64,000 nt of DNA, from assembly GCA_029975555.1 (NCBI GenBank), contig JARKOY010000074.1:62001-126000 (forward strand). Reading direction: 5' to 3'. Each line of letters opens with the position of its first letter. The stretch's first letter is position 1. The translations under genes and the position numbers were made by a program. The DNA comes from Spirochaetia bacterium (GTDB lineage: Bacteria > Spirochaetota > Spirochaetia > Treponematales > Rectinemataceae). A model generated the notes under the pieces. The model worked only from the letters and a program-made list of their open reading frames with translations. It was not told the DNA's origin and did no database searches. Shown piece after piece: positions 5,777 to 28,984 of the stretch.

Positions 5777-6550
5777 AAGTGCCTTTTCCACTTCCCAGCC
5801 CCCATGGACCAGTCCCACCACACCTTTTAGCACACCCAATGCATCAGGATGGCCCCAGATGTTGCGACCCATCGCGATGCCCGAAGCCCCGCGCTCGAGC
5901 GCCCGCGCGATATCATCGAACAGCGTCCGGAGGGAATCTCGCCGCTCGCCTCCCAGGAGCAAAATCGGCACGTGGGAGCCGCAGGCCGCCCGCGCGAAGT
6001 CTTCGATTTTTTCAGGCATGGGCGCCTTGATGAAGGCCGCTCCCAGCTCCTCGGCCGCCCGCAGCGCGACGGCGAGAGCATCGGCGCGCACCGACTGCCG
6101 CCCCTCCTCAAAGGCCATCGCCTCGATCATGACAGGCAGGCCGCGGCGATCGCAGGCCGACACGAGGCGCGCGGCGGCTCTGATGAACTCACCCTCGCGG
6201 GTGTGACCGAACTTGACGGTCACCGCGGCGGCATCGGCTCCCCAGAACAGCGCGTCTTCGGCACCGCACAAGAGTTCTTCCTCGAAGCGGCCCCCCAGGG
6301 TCGTAAAGCCGCCGCTCACGCGCAAAATGAGCCCAAGGCCCCTTTCCCACCCCTCCATGCCGGTGCGCACAAAGCCTTTGTGGGCGAGAATCGCGTCGGC
6401 GCCTCCACGGGCGCAGAGGCGGACAAGCTCCACGGGCGACTCGATGCCCTTAAGCGGCCCGGCAATCGCCCCGTGGTCCGCGGCCACGACGACCGCGCGC
6501 CCGTCCTCCGAAAAAATGTGGCCCATGCGGAGTCTTGCTCCTTCGTTCAT
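5756..6550 (-). CDS. DhnA/LsrF-type class I aldolase
   Basis: VVVAADHGAIAGPLKG and GASGIAMGRNIWGHPD motifs of DeoC/FbaB/LsrF-family aldolases. Confidence 0.8.
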   Translation of the reverse strand: MNEGARLRMGHIFSEDGRAVVVAADHGAIAGPLKGIESPVELVRLCARGGADAILAHKGFVRTGMEGWERGLGLILRVSGGFTTLGGRFEEELLCGAEDALFWGADAAAVTVKFGHTREGEFIRAAARLVSACDRRGLPVMIEAMAFEEGRQSVRADALAVALRAAEELGAAFIKAPMPEKIEDFARAACGSHVPILLLGGERRDSLRTLFDDIARALERGASGIAMGRNIWGHPDALGVLKGVVGLVHGGWEVEKALSALNLG

Positions 6551-6562
6551 GACCTTCCCTCC

Positions 6563-8029
6563 TCAATCCACCAGGCGGGCACATCCGTCCGCCCCCGCCT
6601 GCGCCTTCGAAATCGCGGGAAACAGGCCAGCGAGCCGTCGATACCCCTCGAGGTAGATGGCGAAAAGCTCATCGTACACCGCCGCGGTTTCTTGTCTGGG
6701 CTCGAATATGTGGGCGGGGACGAAGACCTTCTCGGAGGCGGCGGCGAGGCTCGGCTCCTCGCCCAGCGCGAATCTGCCGATCGCGAGACCGCCCGCGAGT
6801 TCAGACTCGGAGAAATCGGCGACCATCACTCTCTTGCCCGTGATGTCGGCCTTTATCTGGTTCCATACCGGCGAACGCGAGGGCATGCCCGTGGCGCGCA
6901 TGTCTTCGACGCGGGCCCCCGCGGTCTCCATGACGTCCAGCACTTCGCGCATGGCGAAGGCCGTCCCTTCGAGCACGGCGCGCGCCAGCGCCCCCATGTC
7001 GTGATGGAGCCCGAGGCCGAGGAATACGGCCCGCGCGTCGGGGTCCCAGTGGGGCGACCGCTCGCCCGCGAGGTAGGGCAAGAACACGAGCCCTCCCGCG
7101 CCAGGGCTCGTTGCGGCGGCTCTCCTGTAGATCGCATCGTAGTCTTCCGCGGGCAAAAAACGGCTTCTGAACCAGGAGAGCGCCCCTCCGCTCGTCGAAA
7201 TGACGCCCGAAATATTGAAATAGGGCCGCACGACGTGCGGCATTACGAGGAGCGCACCCGCAGCACCCGTATCCTTTTCGGAACAAAGGTTGATCCCCTC
7301 TGAGGTCCCTCCTTTGTCGCAGGTCCTCCCAGGCCGGACCGTCCCTGTTCCCAAGAGCGAGGCAATGAAGTCTGGGCCTCCCATCACCACCGGCAGCCCC
7401 TGCGGCAAGTCAAACTCGTCGGCCGCCTTGGGATGCACGCGGCCGACAATGTCGCCGATGCCCACAAAGGGAGGAAATTTTTCGATATCGAGCGAGAGCG
7501 CCTCGAGCGCGGCCCTGTCCCAGATGATGCGCGTGTAGCCCTCGTTCGGAAGACAGGTCGTCCACTCGCCGGTGAGGTGCCCTACGACGAACTCTGGACA
7601 TGAGACAAAAAAGCGCGAAGCGGCGTAGAGGTGCGGCATATGGTCGCGCAACCAGAGAATTTTAGGCAGATTGAACGCTGCGTCGAGGGGATAGTGCAGA
7701 GCCGCCGAAGCCTCTTCGGCCTCTTTCTGGGCGCGCCGATCGAGCCAGGTGATCGCAGGCGAAAGCGGCTCGCCGCGCGCATCGATGGGCAGAATCGTCG
7801 GGCCGTTGCCGCTCACGACGAGGGCACGGAGACTGGCACGCGTGCTCGCCGAAAGGAGCTTGGAGGTTATGTCGGAGAGCGCCCCGAGCCAAAGCCGGGC
7901 GTCCACTTCGTGGTAGGTGTTCGAAGCGCTTTCCGCCAACTCCACGGCGGCGAATCCCACGCTCCTGCCTTCATGATCGAACAGCGCGGCCTTGACGCGC
8001 GTCGTTCCTATATCGACTGAAAGAATCAA
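6563..8029 (-). CDS. FGGY-family carbohydrate kinase (xylulokinase-like)
   Basis: MILSVDIGTTRVKAALFD phosphate-1 motif, FLPYLAGERSPHWDPDARAVFLGL. Confidence 0.9.
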   Translation of the reverse strand: MILSVDIGTTRVKAALFDHEGRSVGFAAVELAESASNTYHEVDARLWLGALSDITSKLLSASTRASLRALVVSGNGPTILPIDARGEPLSPAITWLDRRAQKEAEEASAALHYPLDAAFNLPKILWLRDHMPHLYAASRFFVSCPEFVVGHLTGEWTTCLPNEGYTRIIWDRAALEALSLDIEKFPPFVGIGDIVGRVHPKAADEFDLPQGLPVVMGGPDFIASLLGTGTVRPGRTCDKGGTSEGINLCSEKDTGAAGALLVMPHVVRPYFNISGVISTSGGALSWFRSRFLPAEDYDAIYRRAAATSPGAGGLVFLPYLAGERSPHWDPDARAVFLGLGLHHDMGALARAVLEGTAFAMREVLDVMETAGARVEDMRATGMPSRSPVWNQIKADITGKRVMVADFSESELAGGLAIGRFALGEEPSLAAASEKVFVPAHIFEPRQETAAVYDELFAIYLEGYRRLAGLFPAISKAQAGADGCARLVD

Positions 8030-20482: not shown

Positions 20483-20794
20483 TCAGCCTCCAAAGCTTTT
20501 CGCATGACCGGCCTTGAGATCAGCATCTTCTTGTGCGCGGCCCATGTTTACAGACAATCGCCTTAGTATTTCAAGCGCTTCTTCAGCCTTTTGTTCGGGG
20601 ACAAATATGTGATCATGGTAATCTCCTGCGACCACGTTGGCGCTTATGCCGTGGTTGGCGAGTTCCGTGGCGACCGAAGCGGTGTCCGAGCCTTCAGTAT
20701 ATCCTCGCACGTGGCAGCATGCAAACTGGGGAGAGTCTTCGGGCGGGGCCGGCCATTTGGCTTCTATTCTCTCGACATTCGCATTACAATCAAC
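20483..20794 (-). CDS. ACT-domain protein, C-terminal-like portion (possibly N-terminally truncated)
   Basis: HGISANVVAGDYHDHIFVPEQKAEEALEILRRL resembles the C-terminal half of ACT_7/DUF2241-like proteins; start uncertain (GTG at 20794 suggested). Confidence 0.5.
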   Translation of the reverse strand, partial: VDCNANVERIEAKWPAPPEDSPQFACCHVRGYTEGSDTASVATELANHGISANVVAGDYHDHIFVPEQKAEEALEILRRLSVNMGRAQEDADLKAGHAKSFGG

Positions 20795-20831
20795 CCAGAG
20801 AAGAAATATCACCACTTGGCAGGGGGTCTGT

Positions 20832-22943
20832 ATGGCAGACAAGGGGCACGTATGGCGCTTCAGACGTATCGGCGGTACGGATCAGGTCGTACTGAAGACA
20901 GGAGAAGACATCGCCGCGCTTTCAGCGCTGGATCCAAAGCTGTGGGTCGCCCTCGCGATGCCTGTGGCGCAGCATCGCTGCACGGAGACGCTCTCCCTGC
21001 TCGACGAGGACCACGACGGCAAAGTCCGCGTGCCGGAGGTGCTGCATGCGGTGGACAGGTTGCAAAAGGCATTCAACAGCCTCGACATTCTATTTGACGA
21101 GAACAGCACAATTTCCCCAAGCCTGCTCAAAGACGAGAACCTCCGGGAAGCCTGCGTTAATGCTGCCCAAATTGCCGGAGCAAACGCCGAAGAAGTCGAC
21201 ATCTCTGTGGTAGAGAGGGCAATTTCGCGCTTCAACGAGCGAGCATTCAACGGGGATGGAGTCGTCCTCCCTGCATCGGCACAGGATCCGCATATCGCCA
21301 GCACCATCGAAACGCTCATCGGCTCAGGCTATCAGGCACCTGACAGTTCAGGGAAAAACGGCGTGGACAATTCGGCGCTCGAGGCCTTCGTCCACGATGC
21401 CGCCCTCGTTCTCGAATGGCACGCATCGGGCGAGGCGATGCGAAGTGCCCTGCTGGACCTTCCTTTCGATGCGACACTTCCGGCATTTCGTGCAGTGTCC
21501 GAGGTGATAGACGATTACTTCAGACGATGTGCGCTGCTCAACCTTGCAGGAACGGCCGAGGCGCTCAACAATCTCGAGACGCAGCTCGCGGCAGCCCTTG
21601 CCACCCCGCTCGGGAACAGCGCAGAAACCCTGCAGTCCTTGCCGCTGGCACTGCCTCGGGCCGATGGTCTTCTACCTCTCGACGCGCCGTACAACCCCCT
21701 GTACGCGACAGAAGTCAGATCTGTGTTCGATGCAGTGAAGCTGCCATATAGGGTGGAAAAACAACTCGACAAAGCAACGTGGGAACGAATTTCTTCCGAC
21801 TTCAGGTCCTATTCGTCGTGGCTCGGGCGCAAGCCCACAGTCGGCGCCCAGTCCATCGAACCAGAGATGCTCGATGACATCCTCCACGATGGCTCTCTGG
21901 AGGCAATCCGCACACTCATAGCCCAAGACCTCGCGGAGGCGTCCCAGGCGAAGATGCTCCATGAGCTGCGGAACATTCTGCTGTTAAAGAGAGATTTTTT
22001 AAGGATACTGCGCAATTTTGTCTCCATGGACGAATTCTACAGCAGCCACGAAGGCATGTTTCAGAGCGGCAGACTCTTCATCGACGGACGGGAGCTCGAG
22101 CTCTGCATGGATGTCCACAATCCTGCCGCGCACCTCTCCATGGCGGGGCTCTCCGGGATGTACCTCCTCTACTGCGACATACGCCGAACCACCGGAGAAA
22201 ATGGTTCGATCGTGGCCGCGCTCACCGCAGGGGATGCAGACAGACTCTACGTTGGGCGAAATGGAATCTATGTCGACAATGATGGCCTCGATTGGAACGC
22301 CACCATCACAAAAGTGGTCATTCAACCCATCAGTATCCGCGAGGCGTTTTTCAGCCCTTACAAATGGCTCGCGCGGACGATCGAAGAGTTCTCGGCCAAA
22401 CGGGCCAGCGCGGCCGAAGCCGCGCGACAAGGCCAGCTCAAGGACCTCGCCCAGAAGGCAGTCGAGCAGCCTTCAAAGGCTCCCCAGGCATTGGAACAGA
22501 TCGTGCCCAAGAAGATCGATGTCGGCACAGTGGCGGCGATCGGCGTTGCCTTGGGGAGCATCGGCGCGATGATCACGAGCATCCTCGGACTTTTTCTCGG
22601 CATGGGGGTGTGGATGCCCATCGGCATTGCCGCCGTCTTTCTGCTCATCTCCGGCCCTTCGATGATCCTTGCCGCGATCAAACTCAGGAAGAGAGATCTG
22701 AGCCCGATACTGAACGCCGAAGGGTGGGCCATCAACGGCCGCCTGAAATTGAATCTTATCTTCGGCGCAACGCTGAGCCATCGTGCGAATCTTCCCCCCA
22801 ATTCGATCCGGACATTAAACGATCCCTACGCGCCGAAGAAAAAACCGTGGCCCCTCTACGCCACAGTCATCCTACTCGGAGTGGTGGCCGCTGCATGGCT
22901 GTTGGGGTGGCTCGATCATGTCATTGTCCTGTTCAGAAGATAG
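20832..22943 (+). CDS. Uncharacterised EF-hand-containing protein with C-terminal transmembrane helices
   Basis: Canonical EF-hand loop DEDHDGKVRVPE; hydrophobic segments near residues 580-630 and at the C-terminus; ATG at 20832 preferred over the ORF start at 20637. Confidence 0.75.
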   Translation: MADKGHVWRFRRIGGTDQVVLKTGEDIAALSALDPKLWVALAMPVAQHRCTETLSLLDEDHDGKVRVPEVLHAVDRLQKAFNSLDILFDENSTISPSLLKDENLREACVNAAQIAGANAEEVDISVVERAISRFNERAFNGDGVVLPASAQDPHIASTIETLIGSGYQAPDSSGKNGVDNSALEAFVHDAALVLEWHASGEAMRSALLDLPFDATLPAFRAVSEVIDDYFRRCALLNLAGTAEALNNLETQLAAALATPLGNSAETLQSLPLALPRADGLLPLDAPYNPLYATEVRSVFDAVKLPYRVEKQLDKATWERISSDFRSYSSWLGRKPTVGAQSIEPEMLDDILHDGSLEAIRTLIAQDLAEASQAKMLHELRNILLLKRDFLRILRNFVSMDEFYSSHEGMFQSGRLFIDGRELELCMDVHNPAAHLSMAGLSGMYLLYCDIRRTTGENGSIVAALTAGDADRLYVGRNGIYVDNDGLDWNATITKVVIQPISIREAFFSPYKWLARTIEEFSAKRASAAEAARQGQLKDLAQKAVEQPSKAPQALEQIVPKKIDVGTVAAIGVALGSIGAMITSILGLFLGMGVWMPIGIAAVFLLISGPSMILAAIKLRKRDLSPILNAEGWAINGRLKLNLIFGATLSHRANLPPNSIRTLNDPYAPKKKPWPLYATVILLGVVAAAWLLGWLDHVIVLFRR

Positions 22944-22997
22944 CGTCCATACACGGTTGACGACACGCTTGACGGCTGGGCGTTCAGTCCTATATCC

Positions 22998-23180
22998 TAA
23001 GATTGCTCCAGGGAACCGAGGAATGCGGTGCAAATCCGCAGCGGTCCCGCCACTGTAACCGGGGATGGCCCAGCACGCAAAGGTCCAAAGTCCTTTGCAG
23101 CCATTGCGGCGCATGCCGTGAGAAGGCGCTGTGCGCACAGAGGATCCGGAAGCCAGGATACCGCTCTGGGGCAAGCCCAC
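22998..23180 (+). promoter_or_regulatory. Cobalamin riboswitch
   Basis: GGTGCAAATCCGCAGCGGTCCCGCCACTGTAACCGGGG (B12 box and core) and GGAAGCCAGGATACC; upstream of a BtuB-like receptor. Confidence 0.95.
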
Positions 23181-23369
23181 TATGATGTCCGGGCGAAACT
23201 TCGAGGATTGAGGAACTCCGGATGCGCAGCAACCTTGGCACGCATGCTCCTCTCGCGCGCGTGAGGCAGCGGCCCCTCCACTGCGAGGCAACACACCCGT
23301 TCCATATCCACGGCCACAGGGTACGACTCCTCCCTCGAATTCGCCTCGACCTCGAGGAGGAAACTCGGT

Positions 23370-25328
23370 ATGGACAGCGTGCGCCCACTCGGGGCCTTCG
23401 CGGCCCTCTGCCTCGTTAGTCTTGTTTATTTCCCGGTATTTTCCCAGACGGTCGAACTGCCCTCCGTCGTCGTGGAAGGCTTGCTGCCCATGAGCGACCT
23501 CGCGCCATCTGCGGGCACGACAAGCATCGACCATGCAGCGATCGAAGCGATGGCTGTGCGGGACCTCCCGACGCTCCTCTCATCGGTCGCGGGCGTGATA
23601 ATCTCTCCTACCGGAGCACAGGGCGCCCAGACGACGATCTCCCTGAGGGGTTCCACGTCGAACCAGGTCCTCGTCCTCGTCGACGGCGTGCGCATCACGG
23701 ACCCCGCGACGGGTCAGACCGACCTGTCGCGCATCGACATACCGCTCGACCAGATCGAGCGCATCGAAGTGCAGCGCGGGGCTCTGTCCGCCCAATACGG
23801 TGCGGACGCGGTCGGCGGGGTCATCCACATTCATACAAAAAAGAAGACGGCGACCCCGTCGGTCGACATATCGGTCCTGAACAGGGCTTTCTTGCCCTCT
23901 TCAGTGACAGTCGGCAGCGGCTTTTCCGCCACGACGGTCCCTTTCGTGGCCTCGGCCCTCGTCGACGGGCAAACGCTCGACATCTCCGCACGCAAGAACA
24001 ATCTTGCCGCATGGGCAAAGGCGGAGCGCGCCGCGAACGGCTACCCGTACTACGATTCGAACGGGATACGTCGCTCACGGACGAATGCTGACTTACTCTC
24101 GGCCTCAGGTGGCCTTCAGGCTTCCTCCTCTCTTCCGATCGGGGAACTGTCTGCGTCTGCAAGAATGAACTACCGTTCCATGGGGGTCCCCGGAACGCTG
24201 ACAGTACCCACCCCCAGCGCCCACCAGAACGACTGGAACGGCAGTGTATCCGTGCATTTCAGCACGGATTCCTTGTTCGCGGGGGCGCTCGCCATGGACC
24301 TGAGCCCCTACGCACAGTTCGGCGGCATTCAGTATCGCGAATCGGAAAGTTCGGGAACCGACCAGCACTACTCCTACAGAGCTGGCGCGGACGCCTCGCT
24401 TTCCTGGCTTCCTCCCTGGAACGGCGAACTGAAAGGCGGCGCATCGTTCCGCTATGACCGGCTCGACTCGAGCGTGGTTAAGACGAGCAGCGGCAGTTCG
24501 CCGCAGCGCTTTTCGGAAGGGCTCTTTCTCGAGCCCCGCGTGAGGTTCGGGAAGTGGGCGCTCGTCCCCGCACTCCGCTACGACGCGACCAGCGATTTCC
24601 CCTCGGGAATTTCTGCAAGTCTCGGCGTCCTCTATGACGTGGCGAAGGATACCGTATTCCGAAGTTCAATATCGAGCGCCTACAGGGCGCCATCCTTCGA
24701 CGACCTCTACTGGCCAGCATCAGGCGGGGTGGAGGGCAATCCCAATCTCAAACCGGAGAGCGCCTATTCGGCCGACGTCTCGGTGGCCCGCAACGACGGA
24801 CAAAGATCGTGGTCCTTAGGCGCATTCGCCCGCTATGTGCAGGACGTCATCCTGTGGCAGCCAGATTCCTCGGGTATCTGGACACCATCGAACTACGGCA
24901 ATGCGCTGTACCCTGGAATCGAGCTTGAAGGCTCCACTCCCGTCGGAGACTGGCAGCTCTGCGGCAACTACACCTTCCTCTACAGCTTTGTGCTCTCCGG
25001 GAACCTCACGCTCGCGGACGACAAGCGGGTCCCCTATGTGCCCGTCCACGCCGCGTCCCTCAGCGCGAGTAGATCGGTGAAGAATTTCAAGAGCGCCTTC
25101 ATGTTCACCTATAAGAGCCTCAGATACACGACCACGAGCAATGTTGCCTATCTCCCGTCGAACCTGATCGCCAATGTGAGGCTGCAATGGAAACTCGGCC
25201 CCCGGACGGACCTCGAGCTTCTCTTCCAGAACTGTTTCGACGAGCAGTACGAAGTCGTGCTGGGCTATCCCATGCCCGGTTTCTCGGTGTCGGCAAAATG
25301 CACCGTCCACCTTCAGGGGAAGGAATAG
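23370..25328 (+). CDS. TonB-dependent outer membrane receptor, BtuB-like (cobalamin)
   Basis: Plug domain TTISLRGSTSNQVLVLVDGVRI, IERIEVQRGALSAQYGADAVGGVIHIHTKK, beta-barrel C-terminus; directly downstream of the riboswitch. Confidence 0.92.
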   Translation: MDSVRPLGAFAALCLVSLVYFPVFSQTVELPSVVVEGLLPMSDLAPSAGTTSIDHAAIEAMAVRDLPTLLSSVAGVIISPTGAQGAQTTISLRGSTSNQVLVLVDGVRITDPATGQTDLSRIDIPLDQIERIEVQRGALSAQYGADAVGGVIHIHTKKKTATPSVDISVLNRAFLPSSVTVGSGFSATTVPFVASALVDGQTLDISARKNNLAAWAKAERAANGYPYYDSNGIRRSRTNADLLSASGGLQASSSLPIGELSASARMNYRSMGVPGTLTVPTPSAHQNDWNGSVSVHFSTDSLFAGALAMDLSPYAQFGGIQYRESESSGTDQHYSYRAGADASLSWLPPWNGELKGGASFRYDRLDSSVVKTSSGSSPQRFSEGLFLEPRVRFGKWALVPALRYDATSDFPSGISASLGVLYDVAKDTVFRSSISSAYRAPSFDDLYWPASGGVEGNPNLKPESAYSADVSVARNDGQRSWSLGAFARYVQDVILWQPDSSGIWTPSNYGNALYPGIELEGSTPVGDWQLCGNYTFLYSFVLSGNLTLADDKRVPYVPVHAASLSASRSVKNFKSAFMFTYKSLRYTTTSNVAYLPSNLIANVRLQWKLGPRTDLELLFQNCFDEQYEVVLGYPMPGFSVSAKCTVHLQGKE

Positions 25329-25373
25329 GGTGCGCAGCACCTACTGAAACCAATATCACGTTTAGGAGGTTGT

Positions 25374-26501
25374 ATGAAAAAGCTCTTGTCCAACTATGGA
25401 TGGCGCACGACCTGCGCCCTCGGAATCGTGCTTCTCCTCGCCACGCTGGCCGGGTGCGATCTGTTCACCAAGCCATCCGGATCTACTGGGTCCACGGCGC
25501 ACGTCTACGCGGTGGCATCCGGGAGCGGCAATGTGTACGAGATCGATGCGGACAATGCCACCGCGGCGTCGACGGCGCTCGTGAGCACCGGTCAGAACTC
25601 GACCGGCGAGATGGTCATACACGGCACAAAGGCCTTCGTCGCCGTGGGAAGCTACAACAACACGGCCCCTGGTCTCTACTGGTTCGACCTTTCGAGCTCG
25701 ACGCCTACGGCGAGCCTAATCGGGAACAAGACAAGCGCGCAGTACCTCTGCGTCGTGTCGGACACAAGGGGGTATGTGACCTCGGCAGACTATTCCGGCG
25801 CCTACGCCAACGCCGTGTACAGCTTCGACCCGAGCAACCCCTCGGCGGGGCTTGGCAGCGAGGTCACGGGCTTCGCCTCTGGCTTCTATCCTCAGGACAT
25901 CGCCTATGTGTCCGACGGCAGCGGGACCGGCCGCGTGTTCGTGACGGACAACGCCAACGGCAAGGTGTACCGACTCGATGCAGCAGCAGGCACTGCGGTC
26001 GACCTCACCTTCACGACGAGCGCGGGCGGCACGACGGGGCTTCTGCCCGGCGAATATGACTGGGACAACAACGGCAGCGACGATGCGGGTGTCTTCGTCG
26101 CCAATACCGGAGGCTACGACGCGAACTGGAACCCCCTTCCCGGTTCGATCGACTTCATTCCTTTGAACGCTGCCTCTGGTTCCGACATCGTCACCGTTCA
26201 GTCCAACCTCTCGGTGGGGAGGCTCGCCGCCTTCGACGCTGATCACCTCGTGGGGACGAATTACGGCGGGACGTGGATCATCGATTTGACAAAATCGTCG
26301 GGCGACGCTGGGCGGGTCACCGAGATCAAGAACAGTAGTGGCCTGTCCTTTGGTTCCATCGACGTGGACACCTACGGCGGATACGCCTATGTGCCGGACG
26401 GCTCGAACACGGTGTACAAGATCAGCTCCAGCGGCGCGGTCACGGCAATCGCCGTGGGTCTGAGCACCGAGAAGATCAGCAATGTGGCGGTGAGGGAATA
26501 G
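25374..26501 (+). CDS. Lipoprotein, probable beta-propeller (YncE/NHL-like)
   Basis: Lipobox LATLAGC; recurring blade-like motifs (HVYAVASGSGNVYEID, RVFVTDNANGKVYRLD, YAYVPDGSNTVYKIS). Confidence 0.75.
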   Translation: MKKLLSNYGWRTTCALGIVLLLATLAGCDLFTKPSGSTGSTAHVYAVASGSGNVYEIDADNATAASTALVSTGQNSTGEMVIHGTKAFVAVGSYNNTAPGLYWFDLSSSTPTASLIGNKTSAQYLCVVSDTRGYVTSADYSGAYANAVYSFDPSNPSAGLGSEVTGFASGFYPQDIAYVSDGSGTGRVFVTDNANGKVYRLDAAAGTAVDLTFTTSAGGTTGLLPGEYDWDNNGSDDAGVFVANTGGYDANWNPLPGSIDFIPLNAASGSDIVTVQSNLSVGRLAAFDADHLVGTNYGGTWIIDLTKSSGDAGRVTEIKNSSGLSFGSIDVDTYGGYAYVPDGSNTVYKISSSGAVTAIAVGLSTEKISNVAVRE

Positions 26502-26513
26502 CCCCACAAACGC

Positions 26514-28256
26514 TCACTTCGGAATACGATACTCGACGGGGATCACCAGCGACAGCGCAGAGGCCAGCCTGACATCCAGAGGGAAAATGCTCTGCACGAG
26601 TCTCAGGGCAGCCTCGTCGAGGATCGAGCTCCCGGAAGGACTTTGGATTTGTGCTCTGACGAGGCTGCCGTTGGGCGCCACAACGAGCAAAAGCTTCACA
26701 ACCCCTTCGGTTTTGCGCCTGAGTGCGGCCGGGGGATATTCCTTCCGCGCCGACAATGCGGCGATGATCTGCCGCGAAAGCGTCTCTGGAGTGTCAAACT
26801 GCGGTGCTTGGGCCACAGCCAAGGTCTGTACATCGCGCGCGCCTGAGGGGGCAGCGGGGGCCGCTTCCCCCTCCCTGTCCGGAGGGGCGCGAGGCGGTGT
26901 CTGATCCGCCACACTGGGCTGGGGTGTCAAAGCTCCTGGCTTGGGGAAAGCGTGGTTTTCTTCAGGCTGAGAGGGCGAAGGCACTTCCGCGATGCGACCG
27001 AGGCCATCCGACGGCTGCTTCTGATCCGGCACCACCGAAGCATCTTCTGCATGGCGCGCTATTTCATCCTCTCCTCTATGCTGCACTGCCACATCTTCTG
27101 CACGGGCCTCTGGGCCAGCAGCTTTGACGGCATCGCCCCCCTGCGCCACCTGTTTTGCAGCACTGTCTTCCGCCCGAGGCTGCGAAATGCCTTGAGCGGC
27201 GGCCGCATTGATATATCTCATTTCTTTGTATGAACGTAGCTTCTCTGCCTTGAGCTCTGCGGCCTGGGAAGAGGGAGATGTCCACCCTTCTTCCGCTTGC
27301 GCCGACGCCGCATGCCCAGCGTCTGGCGCCGCCACTGCATCGGATTTTGCAGGAGCCGTGGCACCAGCCTCACCCGCATGCGCCGTAGAAGTTCCGGGCG
27401 CAGTGCGCATCTTCGCGAAGAGTTCCTTCGAGGGAGCGAAGTACTGCCGAGGCGCCTTGGTGGACACAGGGCCCGAGGCGCGCCCGGCCGAAGGCGCGTC
27501 GATTTCAGGGCGCCTTGCCGCCAGAACGCCTGCACTCGGCGGGTCCGCTGGATCGCCTGCCGCCGGGCCACCCGAATCCGCCGGTGCTGCGGTCTTTGCG
27601 GCTGCGGTTTTTACAGAGGGCTCGGGGACCAACGTCGCTGCAGCCGCCGTGCCGGGCAGCGCTCTCTCCTCCTCTTTCGCCGCTTCTGCCTGAGGGGCCA
27701 CAGGGTAAGGCATGAGGGGCTCTGGATCGGAAGCTTGTTCTTGCAGCGCACCCGGAGGCATGCCCTCTGGGCCGCGCCGCCCCTGCCCCACATCGAGCGC
27801 GTGCTCGTCTTCTACGGAAAAGTCTGGCAGAAGAGAAATTGGTCCCTGGGCCGGTGCCGCCGCTGCCGAGGCTGTCGCCCCTCTCGGCAGCACGTATTCC
27901 TCAGCCTGGGCCCACACTGCGGGGCTCTCTTCTTTACCTTCTCCGGCTGGTTGCGCCTCGAGGATAGACAGCCCATCCCCTCCAATCGCAGGCACCTCTG
28001 GTGACTGCACGGGAGGAATAACCGGTACCGGAGAAGTGGTTACCTCCCACTGGGCCGGACGATGCACCTCTGCCTTCGCCCCACGCGCCACGTCGCTCGG
28101 CGCCTGCCCAACCAGACTTATCCTGAGCGACGGCGGGGGAACATTCCGGCCTTGGGCAAAATGCAGCGGGAGAAAAATGACGGCCCCATGGAACAAAAGA
28201 GAACAGAGAATCCCCACAAGCCAGTATCGCCGCTCAAGTCTCTTTTCCAGACTCAC
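26514..28256 (-). CDS. TonB family energy-transducing protein with long Ala/Pro/Glu-rich spacer
   Basis: N-terminal TM anchor, very long low-complexity region, C-terminal TonB domain (ALSARKEYPPAALRRKTEGVVKLLLVVAPNGSL); GTG start at 28256 overlaps the upstream stop. Confidence 0.85.
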   Translation of the reverse strand: MSLEKRLERRYWLVGILCSLLFHGAVIFLPLHFAQGRNVPPPSLRISLVGQAPSDVARGAKAEVHRPAQWEVTTSPVPVIPPVQSPEVPAIGGDGLSILEAQPAGEGKEESPAVWAQAEEYVLPRGATASAAAAPAQGPISLLPDFSVEDEHALDVGQGRRGPEGMPPGALQEQASDPEPLMPYPVAPQAEAAKEEERALPGTAAAATLVPEPSVKTAAAKTAAPADSGGPAAGDPADPPSAGVLAARRPEIDAPSAGRASGPVSTKAPRQYFAPSKELFAKMRTAPGTSTAHAGEAGATAPAKSDAVAAPDAGHAASAQAEEGWTSPSSQAAELKAEKLRSYKEMRYINAAAAQGISQPRAEDSAAKQVAQGGDAVKAAGPEARAEDVAVQHRGEDEIARHAEDASVVPDQKQPSDGLGRIAEVPSPSQPEENHAFPKPGALTPQPSVADQTPPRAPPDREGEAAPAAPSGARDVQTLAVAQAPQFDTPETLSRQIIAALSARKEYPPAALRRKTEGVVKLLLVVAPNGSLVRAQIQSPSGSSILDEAALRLVQSIFPLDVRLASALSLVIPVEYRIPK

Positions 28257-28984
28257 ACGTTGCTCCGGTGCAGATGTCTTCTGATGACGGCTTCGACCTG
28301 GTTCCGAAACACGAGGAGCAGGACCATAAGAATCGCCGTCAGAACCGCCAAGGCGATCACGAGTCCGAATCGCTCCCGGTAGACTGCACTCCCCGCGAGC
28401 GTCGTTCCGACGATGCCCGGCATGCGCGCGATCATCGACGCGACCAGAAAGAGCAAAAATGGGCGTGAGCCGGCCCCCGCGAAATAACACAACAGGTCTT
28501 TCGGAATGCCAGGAATCACAAATAAAAGGATGAGCCCGGCAAAGCTCCGCGCGTCCGCCGCATATTTCTGCAGCTTCTCATACTGCTCACGCCTTAAGAT
28601 CGTCATCAGAAAGCGGGGTCCCAAAAGCCTCCCCAGAAAGAAATTGAGCGCAGAACCAAGCGCGATGCCTAAGGTGGAGAGCAGCAATCCTCCCCAGAAT
28701 CCAAAAACAAATCCTCCGGAGACCTGCACCACTTCGCCGGGGACGACGAAGACCACTACCTGAAGCACGTGCAAAAGGATGAACATAAGCCATCCCGAGG
28801 CGCCGAAAGAGCGCACCCAGTTCCGCATCATCTCTCTCTGCGACAGCAGGGGAGTCAACCAATCCTTCAACAAAAGGCCCGCCACCACGAGCGCCACGAG
28901 GAACGCAGGAAAGGCGAGACTTCCCAGCGTGAGCGGTTCCCTTGTGCTGTCCTTCTTCTTCTCTTCCATGATCGGCATTACCAT
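28253..28984 (-). CDS. TVP38/TMEM64 (VTT domain) membrane protein
   Basis: VVFVVPGEVVQVSGGFVFGFWGGLLLSTLGIALGSALNFFLGRLLG. Confidence 0.88.
   Translation of the reverse strand: MVMPIMEEKKKDSTREPLTLGSLAFPAFLVALVVAGLLLKDWLTPLLSQREMMRNWVRSFGASGWLMFILLHVLQVVVFVVPGEVVQVSGGFVFGFWGGLLLSTLGIALGSALNFFLGRLLGPRFLMTILRREQYEKLQKYAADARSFAGLILLFVIPGIPKDLLCYFAGAGSRPFLLFLVASMIARMPGIVGTTLAGSAVYRERFGLVIALAVLTAILMVLLLVFRNQVEAVIRRHLHRSNV

Follow-up and report, generated by a model that had tools for sequence, protein, structure and literature searches.

What does a lipoprotein do when its gene follows that of a vitamin B12 receptor, downstream of a cobalamin riboswitch, in a spirochaete? In Bacteroides, BtuG caps the receptor BtuB, binds corrinoids on a negatively charged channel face and then releases them to BtuB (PMC10404256). 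A paper of 2018 described BtuG as exclusive to Bacteroidetes (PMC6143338). Through BtuG, gut bacteria of this phylum obtain B12 from human intrinsic factor. The window analysed here is a 64,000-nucleotide stretch of DNA from a spirochaete, and a preliminary description of it had proposed that the lipoprotein is either a functional analogue or a distant homologue of BtuG. We consider it probable that the protein is a distant BtuG homologue, acting as the B12-capturing partner of BtuB in a riboswitch-controlled uptake cassette.

Organization of the cassette

The cobalamin riboswitch aptamer lies at 22968..23182 on the forward strand and was detected with cmscan as RF00174 (83.7 bits, E 3.7e-19; gathering score 31.5), the match spanning the full model, positions 1-189. 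The riboswitch claimed in the preliminary description thus stands on a strong match, while the start then given for the locus, 22998, has to be moved about 30 nt upstream. Between the aptamer and btuB is a leader (23183..23369, +) with a GGAGG-type ribosome site just 5' of the ATG, as read from the sequence. A switching helix was sought in this leader by folding, and the predicted stability equalled that of shuffled sequences (z -0.18). Just 5' of the riboswitch a large protein of 768 aa is encoded (20637-22943, +), its start being uncertain. It has a membrane region at the C-terminus, and no Pfam family reached the cut-off.

The receptor gene (23370..25328, +) encodes 652 aa with the Pfam domains Plug and TonB_dep_Rec_b-barrel, in agreement with its earlier reading as a TonB-dependent receptor. 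Its top NCBIfam model is TonB-B12 (201 bits, E 2.4e-59), and its best matches among PDB sequences are Bacteroides BtuB2 and BtuB3, in the chains solved together with BtuG, followed by E. coli Cir and BtuB; its closest fold is E. coli BtuB. Since the best matches of all three comparisons are B12 receptors, although the score stays under the 599.7-bit equivalog cut-off of TonB-B12, the receptor is a BtuB, sharing fold and family with Bacteroides BtuB2/BtuB3 and E. coli BtuB as a divergent member of these TonB-dependent B12 receptors. Convergent with the cassette is a gene for a TonB energy transducer (26514..28490, -; TonB_C, E 2e-12). This TonB is unusually long, 658 aa, and a low-complexity Ala/Pro/Glu-rich stretch precedes its C-terminal domain.

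The lipoprotein gene (25374..26501, +) has its start codon 45 nt 3' of the BtuB stop, with GGAGG upstream, and encodes 375 aa. Both the 45-nt gap and the lipobox LAGC (L25-A-G-C28) of the preliminary description were confirmed from the sequence, and Cys28 is the predicted site of lipid attachment. A lipobox-like Cys occurs in all 11 aligned family members that have an N-terminus, being weak in two of them (L022 and L026). The mature protein is acidic (pI 4.2), as are those of the family (pI 4.1-4.6), an overall charge that resembles BtuG, where the B12-binding face of BtuG2 is strongly negative.

Predicted fold and relationship to BtuG

An AlphaFold2 model of the lipoprotein, built with the 12-member family alignment as input, has a pLDDT of 88.5 and a pTM of 0.85. 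Its strands fall into seven blades, the last being closed between the C-terminal strand and the strands with which the mature protein begins. The recurrent blades noticed earlier are thereby borne out, and the model is the seven-bladed propeller that had been expected from structure prediction. When it was compared with the whole PDB by Foldseek, ranks 1-13 were all BtuG (BtuG1/2/3, E 4e-12 to 1.3e-8). The first other match was a designed propeller (E 1.1e-7), with E. coli YncE at the same E value. Both are weaker than the last BtuG by a factor of about ten, and than the best by four orders of magnitude. The predicted specificity for BtuG over other propellers rests on this ranking of PDB folds, in which BtuG is the nearest solved relative. 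The BtuG matches have a TM of about 0.7 and an identity of 12-14%, so the relation is distant.

Propeller blades are repeats, and sequence evidence therefore needs care. By sequence alone the lipoprotein matched only single NHL or Pizza blades in the PDB, and these were not taken as evidence of family. When the PDB was searched with the family profile, single NHL-type blades again outscored BtuG, which was matched over long stretches at E ~1e-3. We then aligned the window's family by hhalign with a set of 19 Bacteroidota BtuG proteins, whose profile matches BtuG chains at up to 1e-77. The two families matched with 98.1% probability (E 7e-14) over 304 columns, with about 23% identical residues and with the register kept all the way between the lipobox region and the final blade. 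When two lipoproteins of other families in Spirochaetota, those of L081 and L154, were aligned with each other, they matched the window's family at 99.5% and BtuG at 99.6%, and that of L154 by itself matches BtuG chains at 2e-10.

A propeller that evolved independently and was recruited to BtuB would be an analogue compatible with the same function. In its favour, convergence is easy among repetitive blades, the best scores by sequence go to single NHL blades, and unrelated spirochaete propellers are also matched by the BtuG profile of Bacteroidota. Set against this are the profile match, which keeps its register over the full length between lipobox and C-terminus, the BtuG-specific fold ranking and the location of the intermediates in B12 loci, and we regard an independent origin as unlikely. 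The proposal of the preliminary description is supported by the fold and by the neighbourhood of the homologues; of its two options, distant homology is favoured over analogy as the probable relationship because of the profile-profile match and the intermediate spirochaete proteins.

A pattern scan with the most conserved peptides of the family through a collection of 84,980 species gave six loci, and one of these holds a Cyclobacteriaceae protein (L034) that is a clear member of the BtuG family. With L034 the window's lipoprotein shares the GGYDANWNP of a GGYDANWNPL loop (residues 246-255; 26109..26138, +), and the GGY loop is common to it and some BtuG members. In BtuG2 the loop Asp236-Pro249 includes Tyr239, which touches B12 (PMC10404256). 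Tyr248 of the GGY motif appears to correspond to this residue, the numbering having been read by us from the aligned sequences in the hhalign register. Several homologues, the more distant ones, are without this loop, so that the correspondence is suggestive only. Conservation in the family concentrates at the blade starts round the channel (P 0.0006, for windows picked from the model strands after the alignment had been viewed).

Distribution and gene neighbourhood in Spirochaetota

Homologues of the lipoprotein were found in 11 other genomes among 58 relatives. In a sample of 294 genomes from the order, 12 have the protein, the genome of the window being counted. In all ten other copies with an upstream region present the order is riboswitch, BtuB, lipoprotein, and no copy was found elsewhere; the eleventh is cut by a contig end and is outside this count. 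Across these ten and the window, the riboswitch lies 38-207 nt 5' of BtuB and the lipoprotein 22-208 nt 3' of it. The arrangement is not due to chance, because it is repeated in ten other genomes of the family and order. Of the three outcomes that the preliminary description had set against its own proposal, neither a fold other than a propeller nor homologues away from BtuB and B12 riboswitches was encountered; the neighbourhood survey that it had suggested places the homologues consistently beside both.

The search among relatives gave 13 BtuB proteins at least about 40% identical to that of the window, which is counted among them, and the lipoprotein gene comes next in 11. One of the remaining two lies at a contig edge. 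The other belongs to a sister species of the same genus (G003, locus L070), which has kept the riboswitch and a 65% identical BtuB and is cleanly without the lipoprotein gene, so the lipoprotein is an accessory. This species offers a ready natural comparison of BtuB without the lipoprotein. At 6118-7200 of its locus, BtuB ends beside a convergent tonB region. Within the family and order, BtuBs more distant than these are without the lipoprotein wherever the downstream region is present, and two of them have BtuF-BtuC-type genes downstream instead. On a BtuB tree the state of pairing clusters on particular clades. It changes three times there, as compared with 8.4 times in shuffles, a pattern in keeping with joint inheritance and loss.

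In 393 Spirochaetota genomes searched with the Bacteroidota BtuG profile, 26 loci round the matches were examined. Most hold generic propellers without B12 context, and the reading that every match is BtuG-like was rejected on this ground. The two strongest matches, L153 and L154, lie in B12 loci: L154 has the order riboswitch, BtuB, propeller, and in L153 the riboswitch is followed by two further genes, BtuB, propeller and TonB. An AdoCbl riboswitch is upstream of a BtuB-propeller pair in L159, and the genes for BtuB and the propeller are adjacent in L166 and L167. Other arrangements are riboswitch-lipoprotein-ExbB-ExbD-TonB-BtuB (L081) and a lipoprotein end followed by ExbB-ExbD-TonB and then CobO/BtuR (L082).

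Several further genes were seen in these loci. Directly 5' of BtuB, L153 (811-1788) and L159 (7672-8472) encode homologous proteins (phmmer 1e-36) without a Pfam family, possibly a further accessory surface protein. An unannotated secreted-type protein directly 3' of BtuB in L081 (1652-2830) matches neither Pfam nor this pair. In L170 (3882-5761, -) a weak cobalamin riboswitch (34.4 bits) stands directly 5' of a propeller lipoprotein with no BtuB alongside, and the small membrane protein that follows could be a transporter component.

Since many Spirochaetota propeller lipoproteins are encoded away from B12 genes, and one sister species does without the lipoprotein altogether, the protein might have an unrelated function, for example in envelope assembly or adhesion, and merely travel with btuB. 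Every family member with its upstream region present, however, adjoins BtuB under a B12 riboswitch, and more distant relatives recur in differently arranged B12 loci such as L081 and L082, the latter with CobO/BtuR; we judge an unrelated function very improbable.

Proposed role and cellular location

The lipoprotein probably related to BtuG differs from it in several respects besides its low identity in the profile alignment. It comes from another phylum, its B12 binding is putative, and a sister species has lost it while retaining BtuB. Searches of Pfam and NCBIfam with its single sequence returned no families, DUF5074 included; DUF5074 is matched by one of the 12 family members (E 1.3e-4) and is carried by the Bacteroidota relative. 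The Bacteroidetes lipoprotein export signal was sought after Cys28 and is absent, the residues there being DLFTKPSG, whereas BtuG2 carries MKWD after its lipid Cys (PMC6143338). As this signal is described as exclusive to Bacteroidetes, its absence speaks against BtuG proper and not against the function; together with the missing DUF5074 match, it led us to file the protein as a BtuG-like variant rather than as BtuG itself.

The same residues bear on the side of the membrane that the lipoprotein faces. It might belong to the B12 system and yet be turned to the periplasm, as a tether or hand-off between BtuB and BtuF and not as an extracellular lid. Besides the want of a Bacteroidetes-type export signal, the Asp at position +2 after Cys28 would agree with this. 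In E. coli, Asp at this position retains lipoproteins at the inner membrane, a rule that is not known to hold in spirochaetes. In the family as a whole the position after Cys is occupied by D, N, T, S, G or Q, so that Asp is not conserved there as a signal for retention. Propellers of the periplasm that pair with receptors do exist. One is YncE, whose partner YncD (PqqU) is a TonB-dependent receptor like that of the window, and YncE is among the non-BtuG fold matches. It falls some four orders of magnitude below BtuG in Foldseek, however, and the receptor of the window is of the BtuB type under a B12 riboswitch. A periplasmic orientation is in our estimation decidedly unlikely.

The analysis shows the riboswitch, the order of the genes, the fold of the model, the homology and the conserved pairing; that the two genes are co-transcribed, and that the lipoprotein binds B12, is exposed on the cell surface and docks on BtuB, we infer. 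Under scarcity of cobalamin the riboswitch would permit expression of BtuB, and the same transcript would yield a lipid-anchored, acidic, seven-bladed propeller. Corrinoids are most likely bound where the central channel of this propeller opens, and the propeller most likely sits on BtuB as a capturing lid, from which BtuB would receive the vitamin for import driven by TonB. The TonB encoded nearby, together with the BtuF-BtuC of the same genome under a second B12 riboswitch, would complete the route. The co-folding suggested in the preliminary description was attempted with an in-frame BtuB-lipoprotein fusion of 1043 aa, in which the TAG codon was translated as Gly. Both domains form in it; the pTM is 0.57 and the arrangement unreliable, and with such a pTM and no interface measure the fusion is not counted as evidence of docking.

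The known systems most like the cassette are those of BtuG1/2/3 in Bacteroides thetaiotaomicron (PDB 3DSM, 8BMX, 8OKV, 8BLW), likewise seven-bladed propeller lipoproteins encoded beside btuB in cobalamin-riboswitch loci. BtuH and BtuJ (DUF4465) are also accessory B12-binding surface lipoproteins of riboswitch loci; BtuJ has a beta-jellyroll fold, BtuH uses a non-propeller C-terminal domain for binding, and the lipoprotein of the window matches neither family. DUF4465 has been reported in Spirochaetota (PMC13398666). A report of BtuG in spirochaetes was sought in the open-access literature and none was found, the DUF4465 paper being the only one among those listed to join both terms.

We are cautiously inclined to think that B12-capturing lids of the BtuG type are not a Bacteroidetes invention. 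On this view BtuB has a wide and varied range of propeller lipoproteins as partners throughout Spirochaetota, and these would reach the surface without the Bacteroidetes export signal. They would have been passed on together with certain lineages of BtuB, and repeatedly lost from them. With a BtuG-like lipoprotein in a free-living spirochaete, the catching of B12 by a lid may extend well beyond the phylum of Bacteroides; if the counterpart is true, lid-assisted capture would be older or more mobile than thought. The diverged pairs of BtuB and lid would be a resource for finding residues important in binding and hand-off, and they prompt one to ask how such a lid is brought to the surface of a spirochaete.

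The genome of the window has two more cobalamin riboswitches, one before BtuF-BtuC and one before NrdD, as would be anticipated for a cell with B12 sensing and import. The third riboswitch (L028, 7371-9688, -) precedes NrdD, a B12-independent anaerobic ribonucleotide reductase.
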